Virus record (IMG/VR): IMGVR_UViG_3300042923_000235
Coordinates: 1 to 40,733 of that record
Reading direction: 5' to 3' (one strand)
From: a virus
Length of the DNA stretch: 40,733 bases
Part shown: positions 27,672 to 34,239 of the stretch, in pieces
Layout: the number at the start of each line of letters is the position of its first letter
Numbering within the stretch: position 1 is the first letter of the stretch
Translations under genes and position numbers: made by a program
Notes under the pieces: model-generated
What the model was told of the DNA's origin: nothing
The model's input: the letters and a program-made list of their open reading frames with translations, nothing else
Database searches by the model: none

Positions 27672-29849
27672 GTGAGTGATAAGAGTAAAGATTCTCCTGA
27701 TGAGGTCAAAGTTCCCGAAGTGGGACTCGGCCGATTTAAGAAATGGGCTTACCTAGGTGAGAACCAACTGCATCCGGCTGTAATGGGTGTGTGTGCAAAC
27801 CTGGTAGTGTTCCCATGGGTATCATCACCTACCCGTATTTACATGGTAGGCAACATGATCCCGAAGTCCGTTGTGACCTCGGGTGCAAGTGAGCGTAAAC
27901 TTAAATCTGGCAACGAATACCAATATGCCAAACGCGCTCGCTGTGTTGAAGCTCCATCCAACATGACGATTGAGGAAATCTTCTACGCCCAAGCTGTTAA
28001 CGGAGGAGAAGGCGACACTGACAAATGGGCGCCGGTGTATGTGGTGTTCCGCAACGAGGAGAAGGGCAAGTACGATATCATGGAGTTTCCACGGTATAAC
28101 GTACAAAACTCCTACGTTGGCTTTGAATATGTGTATGACATGAATGTCATGCGCAAGCTGAAGAAAGGTGCAACGTTCCCTAAAGGTACGATCTTTGCCA
28201 AATCCCCACGCATCAGTAAAGATGGCGAATGGATGTTTGGTATGGACCTCAAGGTAGCGCCGGCATCGTTCCACTATACCGAGGAGGACGGCATCGGCAT
28301 TACCGAGAGCTGTGCTCGTGATAAGCTGCGTTGCATGTTTGAACATGTACGCGCTCACGGTTGGAACGAAGACGAGTGGGTTCCGCTGACGCTGTACGGA
28401 GATAGCCCATTCCCGCAAAGTGGTGAACGTATTCGTGAAGATGGCATTGTGATGGGTTTCCGTCGTCGTGTCTCTGCGAACGCGTTGGTGTCGCTCACCA
28501 AGAAAGCTTTGACCATTCCAGACGAGACACACGACATCCTGTTCAGGGCACCGGTGGACTCTGAGGTCATGTCGGTTGAAGTGATCAGTGAGCGCATGAA
28601 GAACAAGTCGAATAACCGTTCGACTGATTATATCAAACAGGCCCACACGAACATGCTGGAACGCTACGAGCGTCGCCAGAACGACATGTGGAACGAGGTG
28701 ATCCGTTGGCACAGTGGTCGTGTATCGGCTAACCGTGGTAACCCAATCGCCATGACCCGTCCTTTGAATCGGTTTATCCGCTTCGCTAAGGGCAACTACA
28801 CCATCAATGCGAATACCGGTAAACCCAACCCGCTGTTCCGTGCTGTGAAGCGTGTACGTGTTAAAGACTGGAGCATTACGATCCGGTTGCGTGAAATCGT
28901 TTCGGGCCGTGCAAAGTTCAAGATGTCGGGTATGAACGGCGACAAGGGTGTAATCGTTCGGATCATCCCAGACGAAGATGCTCCGCGTTATGACGATGGT
29001 ACTGTGTGTGACGTTGTGGTTAACAACACACCAGCCTTCCGTCGTCAGATCTTCTCGATGCTGATGGAACAGTCGATCAACTTTATCAACGTCAACGTCC
29101 ACAAGGAAGTTGTCAAGTTGCATAAGGAAGGCGACTACATTGGTGCCATGGAAAAACTGATGCTGTTCTACGAGACTGGGTTCCCAGAGTTCGCAGAGCT
29201 GGTACAGCAGACCATGGTGACCCGTGAGGACATCGTCGAGTACGTCAACGACATCGCGGCTACGCAGATCAGTGTGCATGTGCGTAGCGACACCAAGCTC
29301 TACGGCGTTGAGATCATCAAAGCCCTGCGTAAGGTGTACAGCTACAAGCCTGAGCAAATCACCTTCCGAGATTCCCTCGGCGAGATGGTTCGGTCTGTCA
29401 ACCCGGTACTGATCACCAACCAGCACTTCATGCTGTTGGACAAGTTCGGTACCGACATGTCGGCTCAGTCGCTCCCAATGTCTAACCCGTTCGGCATGCC
29501 AGCCAAACTTAACGAGGCCAACAAATATTCCAGTTGGCTGCGGATGGTCTGGAACCGGAACAAGGGTGAAACAGAAGCACGACTTACACTGAGCCAGGCA
29601 GGTGCTAAAGAAACGGTCAAGCAATTGGCCATGGGGTATGCACCTGAGCTCCGTACGCGGATGGCACAGCGTGTGGTGCGGGCTGAGGATGGGTTTAACA
29701 TCAACCAGATCATCAAGCCTGACGAGTATGGGTTGAACCGAGCAGTACAAATGTCGCAGAGCATGCTCAGTGACTCCGGTTACACCCTGCGTCGTGAACT
29801 ACCGTCTGACCGTTCAGATTATGAACCGCCTGTTAAGGAGTCCCTGTAA
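27672..29849 (+). CDS. Non-virion RNA polymerase, beta C-terminal subunit
   Basis: 725 aa, GTG start with AGGAG about 8 nt upstream. Residues 414-450 (KMSGMNGDKGVIVRIIPDEDAP then DDGTVCDVVVN) match the conserved beta block with GRHGNKGVxSxIxPxEDMPxxxDGxPxDIxLNP, including the catalytic-centre Lys region. GIGITESCARD near 207-217 fits the upstream beta region. This is the counterpart of phiKZ gp71-73, which in phiKZ is interrupted by an intron carrying gp72; here the frame is continuous. The stop overlaps the beta' C start by one base (TAATG), giving equal production of the two subunits. Confidence 0.9.
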   Translation: MSDKSKDSPDEVKVPEVGLGRFKKWAYLGENQLHPAVMGVCANLVVFPWVSSPTRIYMVGNMIPKSVVTSGASERKLKSGNEYQYAKRARCVEAPSNMTIEEIFYAQAVNGGEGDTDKWAPVYVVFRNEEKGKYDIMEFPRYNVQNSYVGFEYVYDMNVMRKLKKGATFPKGTIFAKSPRISKDGEWMFGMDLKVAPASFHYTEEDGIGITESCARDKLRCMFEHVRAHGWNEDEWVPLTLYGDSPFPQSGERIREDGIVMGFRRRVSANALVSLTKKALTIPDETHDILFRAPVDSEVMSVEVISERMKNKSNNRSTDYIKQAHTNMLERYERRQNDMWNEVIRWHSGRVSANRGNPIAMTRPLNRFIRFAKGNYTINANTGKPNPLFRAVKRVRVKDWSITIRLREIVSGRAKFKMSGMNGDKGVIVRIIPDEDAPRYDDGTVCDVVVNNTPAFRRQIFSMLMEQSINFINVNVHKEVVKLHKEGDYIGAMEKLMLFYETGFPEFAELVQQTMVTREDIVEYVNDIAATQISVHVRSDTKLYGVEIIKALRKVYSYKPEQITFRDSLGEMVRSVNPVLITNQHFMLLDKFGTDMSAQSLPMSNPFGMPAKLNEANKYSSWLRMVWNRNKGETEARLTLSQAGAKETVKQLAMGYAPELRTRMAQRVVRAEDGFNINQIIKPDEYGLNRAVQMSQSMLSDSGYTLRRELPSDRSDYEPPVKESL

Positions 29850-31843
29850 TGGCCTTGCAAATTAACCTACGGGAGTTTGCTAACCTGCCTGAACACCAGG
29901 TATTGCGTTGGCGTGGTTTCCGTATGGCCGTTGAGGTCACGGATGACCAAGGGGAAAAGGTGCTGAGTGATAGTTATGCCATGCTGCTAACCTGGCAAGG
30001 CATGATGATTCACCGGCAATACAACAACGTACCGTACTCCGTTAAAGAGATCATCCCAACTGGCAAGAGCGTCGTGTATAACAACAAGACGCTCGCTATT
30101 CCAATGAACTGGATCATGGGTGAGATTGGACCCACCATTCATGATCCAGTGGAATGGGATTCGATCAAGATGACCATCCACATGTGGCAGACCAAGCTTA
30201 ACAACTTGATCGTGGTCATGAGTGAGACGTCGGTTATCTCGGCGATGGCGGAATCGGTAGACGACCTGATCGAAGATCCGGGTATCCGCGAGATCCATCG
30301 CAAGGTACTCGATCGGGAAGTTACGATTGACGAAGGGGAAGAGCTGTTCTCTGTTTACCTGAAGACGTCCGAGACATTGGATTACAACACGGTAGCCTTG
30401 CTGGCACGTACGGGTGGTGTGAGTATCAACCAAGCGTATCAAACGGCGATCATTCGAGGTGCAGTATTCGACCTCGATAATACCATCATGCCAAACGCTG
30501 TTATGGCACGGTACGCGGATGGTGTGACCAACCTGGCAGACGCCATTGGTGATAACCGTGGTGCGGGTAAGGCACTCAACAGTAACGGTCGTGCACTGAA
30601 AGACTCGGAATGGTTTCACCGGAAGATTCACTTGTTCACGGCGATTATCCATTCCATCGGTCACATGGAAGACTGCGGCTCGCTCGACACTGTGCCACTG
30701 CGCATTGCGTCGACTGAGATGGCTAAGAGCCTGCTGGGTTCTTATCGTGTCCTGGAAGACGGTGCACTTGATCTGATCACAGCACATAACTTCAAGTTGA
30801 TCAAAGCAGGCGAGATTGTTAACCTGCGTAACGTGGGCTTCTGTAACAGTCCAAGTGGCACACCGTGTGGCGTGTGTTATGGGATGATGAAGTCTGCCAT
30901 CCCGTACAACCGGATGATGAAGAAGGACGCCAACATCGGCATGTTTGCCGGCACCACGATCTGTAACCCATTGGGTCAGAAAATGCTGTCGACCAAACAC
31001 TTCATCCGTAACGCCACGAGCAAGAAGTTTGTACCTCATCACCGGGACAAGGAGATCATCCGTTCCAACGGCGATCAAATCTTCCTGGAGAAAGAGCTCT
31101 GCAAGGAAGGGACACGACTGATTCTTAAGTCAACCATTGTGAAAGATTTGTCTGACCTGCGTTCCTTGGACATCATGGACGAGATCGCGCTCAGCAAGTT
31201 GCCTTACTTTGGTGAAGTCACCTTCCAGTATGAGGTGGAAGACATCATGGTGGGCGGTACCACCACTCAGCAACATCCAGCGCAGACATCTGTATCGTCT
31301 CGCCGTGCCCGCTTTTCTATGGGATTCCTCCAGTATATACTGGACAATGGCTGGACCAACCAGGATAAGAAGTTTATCTCGGTTGATCTGTCCAAATGGA
31401 ACAGTGAAGACCCTATGTTCGTGTTGCCCTATGTCCGTGAGGACTTGGATGCACACCGGGCTCGGGTGGAAAACTTCCTTACGTTCAACAAACGTAACGC
31501 GGCGTGGAAGAAACAAGTTGTTACTCCGAAAGTCTTCGGGGAAGTCCTGGCCGAGTTCTGGTCGTTGATCGATGCTGAAACTAAAGGCATCAACATGATC
31601 TACGTATCCGTGATCTTGGCTTGTGCGCTGACTAAGGATCCAGCGAATCATTCGTATAAGCTGGCAACCGGTCCTGGTGATAAGTACTTCACCAGTTTTG
31701 TAACCTGTGTGGACAACCGCGGTTCGGGTACGATGTCGATCTTTGAACGGCAGCAAAACATCCTGAACCTTCCGAAAACCTTTGCGGTTAAAGACCGTCA
31801 ACCAAGTGTGCTGGAGTGCTTCCTGCAACACGCGGTGTCATAA
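29849..31843 (+). CDS. Non-virion RNA polymerase, beta' C-terminal subunit
   Basis: 664 aa. EDCGS (C276) with C332, C340 and C343 (FCNSPSGTPCGVCYG) reproduces the second beta' zinc site, which in bacteria uses DCGT and Cx6-7CxxC-YG. Immediately after, residues 361-385 (ANIGMFAGTT, PLGQKMLSTKHF) align with the bridge/trigger region [21 protein letters not shown]. The C-terminal part (about 480-664) would cover the remaining beta' clamp and jaw. Counterpart of phiKZ gp74. It is translationally coupled to the beta C gene and followed by a terminator. Confidence 0.9.
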   Translation: MALQINLREFANLPEHQVLRWRGFRMAVEVTDDQGEKVLSDSYAMLLTWQGMMIHRQYNNVPYSVKEIIPTGKSVVYNNKTLAIPMNWIMGEIGPTIHDPVEWDSIKMTIHMWQTKLNNLIVVMSETSVISAMAESVDDLIEDPGIREIHRKVLDREVTIDEGEELFSVYLKTSETLDYNTVALLARTGGVSINQAYQTAIIRGAVFDLDNTIMPNAVMARYADGVTNLADAIGDNRGAGKALNSNGRALKDSEWFHRKIHLFTAIIHSIGHMEDCGSLDTVPLRIASTEMAKSLLGSYRVLEDGALDLITAHNFKLIKAGEIVNLRNVGFCNSPSGTPCGVCYGMMKSAIPYNRMMKKDANIGMFAGTTICNPLGQKMLSTKHFIRNATSKKFVPHHRDKEIIRSNGDQIFLEKELCKEGTRLILKSTIVKDLSDLRSLDIMDEIALSKLPYFGEVTFQYEVEDIMVGGTTTQQHPAQTSVSSRRARFSMGFLQYILDNGWTNQDKKFISVDLSKWNSEDPMFVLPYVREDLDAHRARVENFLTFNKRNAAWKKQVVTPKVFGEVLAEFWSLIDAETKGINMIYVSVILACALTKDPANHSYKLATGPGDKYFTSFVTCVDNRGSGTMSIFERQQNILNLPKTFAVKDRQPSVLECFLQHAVS

Positions 31844-31902: not shown

Positions 31903-34239
31903 ATGAGGCATTCCGCCACGCTATCCACGGGTCACACTTATCTGCGAATCTTTGGGTACTACGGCGATTTCTGTGCAAAGGTAATCATCCCTTTTTGCCG
32001 CGCTCATCTGTACAAGACTGGTAAGGTTCCACTGCCAGGCACCAATAAACAGGTTTGGAAAGTGACCCACGTGTTCGCTCAGTCTAACCACGACAAAACT
32101 GAGTACCGCATTCCCGTAAGCTTAATGAAGGAATTCATTGAGTTTGCACAATACCGGGGTTACAACACTTCCCGGATTGCTATTCAAACAGAACCAGAGA
32201 TCGAAGGCGCGGATTGCGAGTTTCAACTGCGCCCTGAAATGTCCACTCCCCTGCCTGAACAGGAAGAGTGGATTGAGTACCAGTTAGCGGAAGGTGCCAT
32301 CAAGATCAACAACGCCCCTACGGGCGGTGGTAAGGCGCTGGCCAATGATACACCGGTCAGAACTATCCACGGTTGGCGTCCTATTGGTCAGATCAAGGTT
32401 AATGACCTTGTCATGGCCCCTGACGGCTCCCACACGTACGTTACAGGCGTTTTCCCACAAGGGAGAACACGGACTTACCATCTGACGTTTGAGGACCGCA
32501 GATCGATTGTGGCGTGCCCTGAGCATCAGTGGGAAGTTCGGGCTGAAGGTGAAACCGAATGGCAGGTACTGACCACACAGCAATTGGTGGACAGTGGCAA
32601 GACCTGGTACATTCCGTTAACCGCCAGCGAACGCAATCCTGACCGTGGGGATATCATCGAGCCTTACCTGATTGGCAAGACTGATCGGATTCTCGGTGAG
32701 AAGTATTTGGAAGGTTCTCACTCTCAGCGGATGGCGTTGTTACGCGGTTTGCTGGACAATGGGGGTGAACCACAACGTGACGGTTCGATTGTCTTCAAGA
32801 CCGAATACGGTATCACTGCCAAGATGGTTCGTGATCTGGTTCGGAGCATTGGGGGGATTGCAGAAGCCAAGTTCAAGAAGTTTAAGAACTCGGTTATCCT
32901 GCGGCATCGGACTCCGGAGATCCTCTTCACTGATGAAGCGAAGCAGGACAAGTTGCGGAACTCGGAGAATCGGGATCTGGCATTAAAGATCCTGCAAATC
33001 ACCGAGGGTAATCCAACCGAGACCACCTGCATCGCTGTAGAGCACCCTAGCCACTGTTTCGTGGTAAAGGACTACATTGTTACCCACAACACCTACATGA
33101 GTCTCTACACGGCCGTGCAGCTCGGCAAGCGGATCCTCATTACGGTACAGCCACGTTACATCACCACCTGGATCAATGACATCGAGAAAACGTTGATCAC
33201 GAAGCCAGGCGACATCGTGGTGTGGGAAAACGCTTCGCTACCGTTGCTGGGGGAGAACATCGAGAAGGGGATCCTCAATCCCAAGATCGTTATTGTTCCA
33301 TTCTCTCGGATCTCGGGCTACCTGCGTAACAACCGCAAGGATCCTCATGCAGTGCCGCTTGGCAAGATCTTTGAACAGATCAACCCGGGCCTGCGTATTG
33401 TGGATGAGGGACACGAATCGTTCCACGAGATCTGCCTGTCGCTGTTCCATGGCAACGTTAAGAAGTTGATTACCAACTCGGCTACATTGAGTGGTGATGA
33501 TCCGTTCATGAACCGGATGTACAACTTGATGCTGCCAATCAGTCTCAGGCTTAAGGAACCTGATCCCGAGAACTACATCGACATTGTTGCTTACATGTAT
33601 CACTTGTGTCAGCGCAAGTACTTCTTGAAGACGATGCAGTTTGGTAGTTATAACGACATGGCGTTGGAGGCGTCGATTCTGCGTAGTCCGGTGTTAACGG
33701 AGTTCTACTTCAAGATTGCGGACAAGATGTTCCAGGAGTATTACATCGGGGTAGGTAATCCCGGTGAGTACGGTTACATTCCTCCCATACGGGAAGAGGG
33801 TACCAAAGCGTTGTTCTTCTTCTCACGGATTGAGATGTGTGAAACCATGCTGGCTATGTTCCAGCGGAAGTACCCGCACTTGGACTTCTGTACCTTCCTC
33901 GGTACCAAGGACAAGAAGACACCAACGAAGTACCTGGAGCATGAGATCGTTATTACCACGCCGGGCAGTTGCGGTACAGGTAAGGACATCCCAGGTCTGG
34001 TCAGGACGTTCTGTTTCCACACGGTCTTCTCGACGCAACGGAACAAACAAATGATCGGACGCTTGCGTCAGTTCCGTGGGAAGTTCTCTCACTTCATTGG
34101 TCGGATCACCCCAATGTTTATCTTTGCGTTCTGTAACGACATTGGTAAGCACCAGGAGTGTTTCCAGAAGAGACGCATTGCTTTTGCCAGTAAGGAAAAG
34201 GACTTCAAACTTATTGAATCTAACTGCTCGCTCAATTAA
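31903..34239 (+). CDS. SF2 DNA/RNA helicase interrupted by an intein
   Basis: 778 aa precursor, about 526 aa after splicing. Joining residues 1-144 and 397-778 restores Walker A, PTGGGKTYMS. Motif II is DEGH (501-504), motif III SAT (526-528), and motif VI is QMIGRLRQF (about residues 715-725), typical of UvsW/RecG-like superfamily 2 helicases. It sits directly downstream of the nvRNAP subunits, the place of phiKZ gp75. The intein splits the ATP-binding lysine from the following Thr, so the unspliced protein should be inactive. It likely remodels replication or recombination intermediates. Partner genes are unknown. Start ATG 31903 has GAGG upstream. Confidence 0.85.
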   Translation: MRHSATLSTGHTYLRIFGYYGDFCAKVIIPFCRAHLYKTGKVPLPGTNKQVWKVTHVFAQSNHDKTEYRIPVSLMKEFIEFAQYRGYNTSRIAIQTEPEIEGADCEFQLRPEMSTPLPEQEEWIEYQLAEGAIKINNAPTGGGKALANDTPVRTIHGWRPIGQIKVNDLVMAPDGSHTYVTGVFPQGRTRTYHLTFEDRRSIVACPEHQWEVRAEGETEWQVLTTQQLVDSGKTWYIPLTASERNPDRGDIIEPYLIGKTDRILGEKYLEGSHSQRMALLRGLLDNGGEPQRDGSIVFKTEYGITAKMVRDLVRSIGGIAEAKFKKFKNSVILRHRTPEILFTDEAKQDKLRNSENRDLALKILQITEGNPTETTCIAVEHPSHCFVVKDYIVTHNTYMSLYTAVQLGKRILITVQPRYITTWINDIEKTLITKPGDIVVWENASLPLLGENIEKGILNPKIVIVPFSRISGYLRNNRKDPHAVPLGKIFEQINPGLRIVDEGHESFHEICLSLFHGNVKKLITNSATLSGDDPFMNRMYNLMLPISLRLKEPDPENYIDIVAYMYHLCQRKYFLKTMQFGSYNDMALEASILRSPVLTEFYFKIADKMFQEYYIGVGNPGEYGYIPPIREEGTKALFFFSRIEMCETMLAMFQRKYPHLDFCTFLGTKDKKTPTKYLEHEIVITTPGSCGTGKDIPGLVRTFCFHTVFSTQRNKQMIGRLRQFRGKFSHFIGRITPMFIFAFCNDIGKHQECFQKRRIAFASKEKDFKLIESNCSLN
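32335..33090 (+). mobile_element. Intein, class 3 type, with decayed LAGLIDADG endonuclease
   Basis: Residues A145-N396 of the helicase (252 aa). It starts ALANDTPV, with Ala in place of the usual Cys1/Ser1, and ends THN followed by Thr+1. It carries the W-C-T triplet of class 3 inteins: W210 in block B (H208-x-W210), C376 at the block F position normally Asp, and T394 in block G just before H395-N396. In that class, the block F Cys starts splicing instead of residue 1. Residues 279-288 (LLRGLLDNGG) are a single LAGLIDADG-like motif with the catalytic Asp replaced by Gly and no second motif, so the endonuclease is probably dead. Confidence 0.85.

Follow-up and report, generated by a model that had tools for sequence, protein, structure and literature searches.

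A putative class 3 intein interrupting the Walker A loop of a helicase from a phiKZ-type jumbo phage keeps a degenerate half endonuclease

A phage helicase gene in which an in-frame insert separates the lysine of the Walker A motif from its threonine raises the questions of whether the insert is an intein, to which class it would belong, and what has become of the endonuclease in its middle. We analysed the gene within one 40,733-base virus record (the window), where a single open frame spans both exteins and the insert with no stop. The features of the locus are listed below.

31903-34239, plus strand: precursor gene, phage DNA helicase with intein, 778 aa, stop included in the coordinates (ORF; PHROG phrog_16)
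31903-32334, plus strand: N-extein, 144 aa, ending ...NAPTGGGK, that is, Walker A through its Lys (translation; alignment with the empty-site helicases of GXNNE2 and Joad)
32335-33090, plus strand: putative class 3 intein, 252 aa, A1...T250-H251-N252, precursor residues 145-396 (sequence, alignment, model)
32335-32634, plus strand: N-terminal splicing half, intein residues 1-100 (far border approximate), with block B A-C61-P-E-H64-Q-W66
32515-32532, plus strand: block B core CPEHQW, C61 to W66
32635-32970, plus strand: remnant of half a LAGLIDADG endonuclease, intein residues 101-212 (borders approximate), first block missing (alignment, profile, model)
32728-32766, plus strand: degenerate second LAGLIDADG motif, region RMALLRGLLDNGG, with Gly replacing the catalytic acid (sequence)
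32971-33090, plus strand: C-terminal splicing half, intein residues 213-252, with block F including C232 and block G V-T-H-N
33091-34239, plus strand: C-extein, 382 aa and stop, whose first residue is the Walker A Thr (+1 nucleophile) (sequence; phrog_16 match)

The whole frame matched the PHROG family phrog_16 'DNA helicase' (E 1.6e-34, best stretch residues 8-736), as did the C-extein by itself (E 4e-18), and relatives are named UvsW-like in several records. The window also encodes a divergent DNA polymerase of family B (E 5.7e-239) and has ORFs for RNA polymerase subunits and a tubulin/FtsZ-like ORF that scored under the Pfam cut-off (E 1.5e-6). These genes, and the gene order RNA polymerase, helicase and small ORFs, resemble those of phages such as EL and Joad, which are phiKZ-type; the record of another phage with this helicase, AerS_266, describes its own RNA polymerase as 'PhiKZ-like'. 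Because a 224-kb record (L012, the same as G001) is 98.5% identical to the window over 11,147 compared bases, the window is probably a fragment of the same kind of phage. Many records matching 31903-34239 label the gene 'terminase large subunit'. Since PHROG terminase profiles match the intein or its border (phrog_36964 at precursor residues 143-233, phrog_19299 at 124-208), this frequent annotation is probably explained by the insert.

The insert lies between ...NAPTGGGK and TYMSLYT..., and alignment with GXNNE2 and Joad, whose helicases lack the insert, set its borders at Lys/Ala and Asn/Thr, so that the original prediction, which had placed it between the Lys and Thr of Walker A, was exact to the base. 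The host gene occurs without the insert at precisely this junction. The clearest pair is EL and GXNNE2, in which 421/432 and 1082/1107 bases are identical on either side of an exact 744-bp insert (97.7% of 1539). A pattern-based search with the C-extein alone found 68 helicase loci, EL itself (L031) and near-duplicates counted; 19 had class 3-type inserts at the junction, 41 were empty, one had a class 1-type insert upstream, and in seven the junction was unreadable (L039 because it is cut off, L074-L079 because of their distance). These counts, like those from the best-scoring relatives below, are shares of what the searches returned and do not stand for population frequencies. The upstream insert, in L071 (upstream of 5001), is a class 1-type intein (Cys1, TFDH, HN/Ser) two residues before the class 3 junction, preceding SGKT. 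Six empty-site helicases (L033, L034, L035, L036, L038 and L052) have an odd P-loop, GGGKGY or VGKGW, in which Gly replaces Thr/Ser and which is without the +1 nucleophile that an intein needs.

The insert carries blocks A, B, F and G of the HINT fold in frame inside the host protein, as expected of an intein. Class 3 inteins are defined by Trp at B:12, Cys at F:4 and Thr at G:5 (available text of PMC3196547), and W66, C232 and T250 of the insert (precursor W210, C376 and T394) align with these places in the relatives. Residue 1 is Ala, consistent with the class 3 rule of no Cys, Ser or Thr there, and the C-terminus is an intact T250-H251-N252 (H395 and N396 of the precursor) followed by the extein Thr. 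The original prediction had read all of these residues in the same places, and the alignment with known class 3 inteins that it proposed as a check agreed on Ala instead of Cys/Ser at residue 1 and on Cys at block F position 4. It did not mention a third cysteine in block F, C241 (precursor C385). Because the flanking Lys/Thr and the block residues recur in alignments with other phages, the splicing-block residues are not a chance motif.

To see how widely the residues are conserved, we aligned the best 80 of 532 and the best 80 of 163 relatives from viral and genome contigs. Of these, 155/160 loci were entered, the partial matches L124, L133, L228 and L232 and also L125 being left out, and dropping L152 (stop) and L234 (masked letters) gave 153 rows, 141 of them distinct. 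The Trp two residues after the block B His was present in 141/141; this count is the informative one, because the search patterns required parts of block F or G, including the Cys of F and THN of G, and no Trp, and the equally complete conservation of Cys and THN (141/141) is partly due to selection in the search. Among the 18 complete inserts at the helicase site, near-duplicates counted, residue 1 was Ala in 14, Ser in two, Met in one and Cys in one; block B read CxxH in 14, and Ala1, CxxH, W, C and THN occurred together in 14. Eight of the 141 relatives had Cys/Ser at residue 1 beside the WCT residues, although residue 1 was extrapolated from the start of the match and is wrong in a few rows. 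Ser/Cys at the estimated residue 1 together with WCT residues was seen in L025, L026 and L068 at the helicase site, and in L117, L119, L126, L128, L129, L131 and L154 at other sites. Such a mixture is known for mycobacteriophage Catera Gp206.

By analogy with the class 3 scheme (PMC3196547 and PMC7664689, in part), Cys232 at block F position 4, which in class 3 inteins is the branch point of a block F branched intermediate, would attack the Lys-Ala1 bond, the N-extein would then move onto the +1 Thr side chain, and Asn252 would cyclise with the help of His251, joining the exteins into a 526-aa helicase with an intact P-loop. Because the Lys and Thr of Walker A are separated in the precursor, the precursor would be unable to use ATP, which agrees with the earlier suggestion that ATP binding depends on splicing; the argument would apply to any intein at that P-loop junction. 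Taken together, the insert is almost certainly a class 3 intein that interrupts the helicase of a phiKZ-type jumbo phage at its Walker A loop (GGGK/T), and by homology it is expected to splice.

One point of the original prediction did not hold. It had regarded CxxH in place of TxxH, with Cys at C205 (C61 of the intein), as a departure from the norm. The residue three before the block B His is Cys in 85 of the 141 distinct relatives (Gly in 18, Thr in 15, others in 23), and class 3 inteins are described as generally lacking the Thr of TxxH (accessible part of PMC6195587); Cys is thus the commonest state of this place in the family, and we rejected it as a peculiarity. This bears on the idea that splicing is conditional, with redox state or a metal acting through C61, C232 and C241 to give the phage a switch on its helicase. 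In the class 3 intein of Mycobacterium smegmatis (Msm) DnaB1, a close relative of solved structure, a disulfide involving the catalytic Cys acts as a reversible block (PMC6195587, in part), and C61 is kept in 14/18 complete site inteins, but the experimentally identified redox partner in Msm, Cys48, is by alignment a Thr (T47) in the window, Cys at the C61 place is what most of the family has, and the empty-site relatives manage without such a switch. We therefore consider conditional splicing unlikely.

The middle of this intein, on which the original prediction was silent, holds half of a LAGLIDADG endonuclease, recognised from alignment with full-length relatives, a family profile match to PI-SceI and the helix-strand pattern of the model. 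An active LAGLIDADG (DOD) homing endonuclease has two motifs with catalytic acids. In the window the first motif is missing and the second reads LRGLLDNGG, with no acid at its eighth letter, which we take to be the catalytic position; an active homing endonuclease was accordingly rejected. Surveying 148 distinct inteins with a simple pattern, we found the second-motif acid kept in 84/93 inteins of 320 aa or more and in 9/47 of 230-319 aa (26 without the acid, 12 with no motif), and the motif itself in 0/8 of those below 230 aa, one of which (L070) is cut by a contig end.

Six close sequences, the window and five relatives, gave a pN/pS (codon bootstrap; pairs not independent) of 0.108 (0.070-0.156) for the remnant, 0.122 (0.066-0.180) for the N-terminal splicing half, 0.198 (0.086-0.328) for the short C-terminal half and 0.119 (0.089-0.144) for the C-extein. 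In a set of 12 sequences, with dS near or beyond saturation, dN/dS was 0.148 for the remnant, 0.124 and 0.146 for the splicing halves and 0.079 and 0.123 for the N- and C-exteins; here the remnant was not the most constrained part, yet its value was far below 1. The dead endonuclease half is therefore about as constrained as the splicing domain and is under purifying selection. We favour, with some reserve, a structural role, in which the half would probably now be part of the intein fold.

These results also bear on the possibility that the insert is a class 3 intein that has decayed and lost splicing, leaving the helicase dead or dispensable. With no catalytic acid and no first motif in its endonuclease, the intein can probably no longer spread by itself, and a class 3 pseudogene is on record in Arthrobacter FB24, Arth_1007 (PMC3196547, in part). 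However, the residues missing from Arth_1007, the block B His and the block F Cys, are present in the window intein, no stop breaks the frame, purifying selection acts on both exteins and intein, and the set from Ala1 to THN is shared with most of the complete site inserts, all of which makes decay very improbable and favours an intein that splices.

The AlphaFold model, made for 262 residues (the intein and five extein residues on each side) with 49 sequences in the alignment, has an intein fold (pLDDT 92.7, pTM 0.90). The closest compact structure was the class 3 intein 6bs8_C, with 123 residues superposed at an rmsd of 1.5 A and 31% identity (Z 20.4); Z was 19.4-19.5 for other class 3 DnaB structures, and the whole-length matches were PI-SceI crystal structures (Z 20.4-22.1). 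Presumed class 1 inteins gave Z up to 19.1, the value for the Prp8 intein 6mwy_A. The model was also compared by Foldseek and against predicted viral proteins. In sequence, the insert matched 6riz, in which the WCT residues were grafted into gp41-1 (E 4.8e-10), the class 3 inteins of Mycobacterium DnaB (6bs8, 6rix and 6riy; E 4.3e-8 to 1.6e-5) and natural gp41-1 itself, which belongs to class 1 (6qaz, E 2.4e-7); the matches to 6riz, 6bs8 and 6qaz all fell within intein residues 1-69. No curated Pfam intein model passed its cut-off for the precursor (Hom_end_hint, 14.5 bits vs 32.1), nor did any NCBIfam intein model. Because gp41-1 and Prp8 inteins match nearly as well as class 3 inteins, sequence score and fold point to an intein and the class assignment comes from the signature residues. 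A class 1 or hybrid intein that resembles class 3, as the near-equal class 1 fold matches and the eight relatives with Cys/Ser at the estimated residue 1 might suggest, is hardly credible, since Ala1 makes the class 1 (thio)ester impossible and Trp, Cys and Thr are all present.

How the class 3 intein came to this junction was approached with trees. The intein tree had 130 rows and no class 1 outgroup; of its 127 inner branches 38 were starred and 48 open. It placed the window intein in a clade (SH-aLRT 99) made up of 13 helicase-site inteins, and its 21 helicase-site rows required eight label changes, at least five of them by starred branches; judged from this tree, different class 3 lineages have invaded the same helicase junction. 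On the helicase tree (59 distinct rows of 67, some with long branches) occupancy needed ten changes, and the hosts of the 13-intein clade did not group together. For example, L019 groups with the empty L020, L021 and L030, and also with L025, which carries an intein of a different lineage. To account for these trees, past movement or repeated loss of the intein is needed. L013 differs from the window more in the intein (83% identical protein) than in the exteins (93-95%), and at the DNA level identity drops along the intein from 87% to 68%, with 85% downstream of it; an intein allele swapped by recombination fits this pattern, but so does a locally fast region. In EL, the RNA polymerase subunit at L002:2275-5385 contains a full-length WCT-type intein at ...AAGK/S. 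This intein is 63% identical to the helicase-site intein of VB_ZK_P1 and is its sister (SH-aLRT 95), suggesting that inteins have moved from gene to gene. We rejected a second intein in the window: a search of the record with the window intein matched only itself at E <=1, and the window's RNA polymerase gene (29849-31843) is uninterrupted. The window insert is a discrete, once mobile element whose endonuclease is reduced to a half without the catalytic acid.

All 16 of 16 records with site inteins match the intein family in one to six pieces each, pieces of one intein possibly counting twice. The 224-kb record G001 has three class 3-type inteins, in a terminase, the present helicase and an SNF2-like helicase, each between Lys and Thr; the two outside the window are as follows.

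L260:978-4241, plus strand: G001 terminase with intein, ...RQQGK/...THN/TVS (phrog_2, E 1.9e-40)
L261:691-3708, minus strand: G001 SNF2-like helicase with intein, ...GSGK/...THN/TLT (phrog_62 'DNA helicase', E 1.5e-104; Pfam SNF2-rel_dom under its cut-off)

At least the helicase intein in this lineage keeps its dead half under selection. One could imagine that the three ATPase inteins, with their dead-looking endonucleases, are former parasites that now act together as a post-translational control, holding back the use of ATP by replication and packaging enzymes, with the endonuclease half and the conserved cysteines as a splicing scaffold or sensor; we regard this as improbable. The P-loop Lys/Thr junction has been called a classic intein site (PMC5050341, in part).

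The window intein thus appears as a well-supported, ordinary member of a large phage and bacterial family, for which a phage origin has been proposed (PMC3196547, in part). A class 3 intein in a phage helicase has been described before, in the DnaB of mycobacteriophage Bethlehem (PMC3196547, in part), as have inteins between the P-loop Lys and Thr (PMC5050341, in part). Our literature search, which left most subscription papers outside and so does not establish unpublished status, found no description of an intein in this helicase; public records of the gene already carry notes such as 'intein-containing'. What the locus adds to class 3 is a polymorphic site in phiKZ-type jumbo phages, with empty and filled alleles of near-identical genes and several intein lineages. 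Two features deserve attention: the retention of a dead endonuclease half, and the insertion into three P-loops within a single phage lineage.

The nearest counterparts are the helicase inteins of EL, FishSpeaker, VB_ZK_P1, phiKT1028, AhC3_1 and AerS_266, which share with the window the gene, the Lys/Thr junction, W, C and THN. As in the window, the helicase gene in most of these phages is just downstream of an RNA polymerase subunit gene; small ORFs intervene in FishSpeaker and AerS_266, and the upstream gene is named otherwise or not at all in the AhC3_1 and ZK_P1 records. Their inteins are 198-364 aa long, compared with 252 aa in the window, and 34-40% identical, and all lie outside the 13-intein clade of the window intein. 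Where the window intein begins with Ala, that of EL begins with Met and that of AhC3_1 with Glu, and FishSpeaker, ZK_P1 and AerS_266 keep a long endonuclease where the window has only half.

The MjaTFIIB intein, which is archaeal and is not known to be class 3, likewise keeps a degenerated endonuclease domain. That domain is needed for efficient splicing (PMC6801210, in part), and the dead half retained in the window would offer a clean test of whether splicing requires such remnants. The Msm DnaB1 intein (DnaBi1) resembles the window intein in Ala1, the W two residues after the block B His, the block F Cys and the THN end, but has DxxH in block B in place of CxxH and, as described in the accessible part of PMC6195587, a linker and no endonuclease domain where the window has half of one. 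The M. smegmatis and M. chimaera DnaB1 inteins (6bs8, 6rix, 6riy) have the HINT fold in common with the window intein, and the host of the Msm intein is a bacterial replicative helicase rather than a phage helicase. The TerL1-a inteins of mycobacteriophages also lie between the invariant Lys and Thr of a P-loop (PMC5050341, in part), in a terminase and not, as here, in a helicase.
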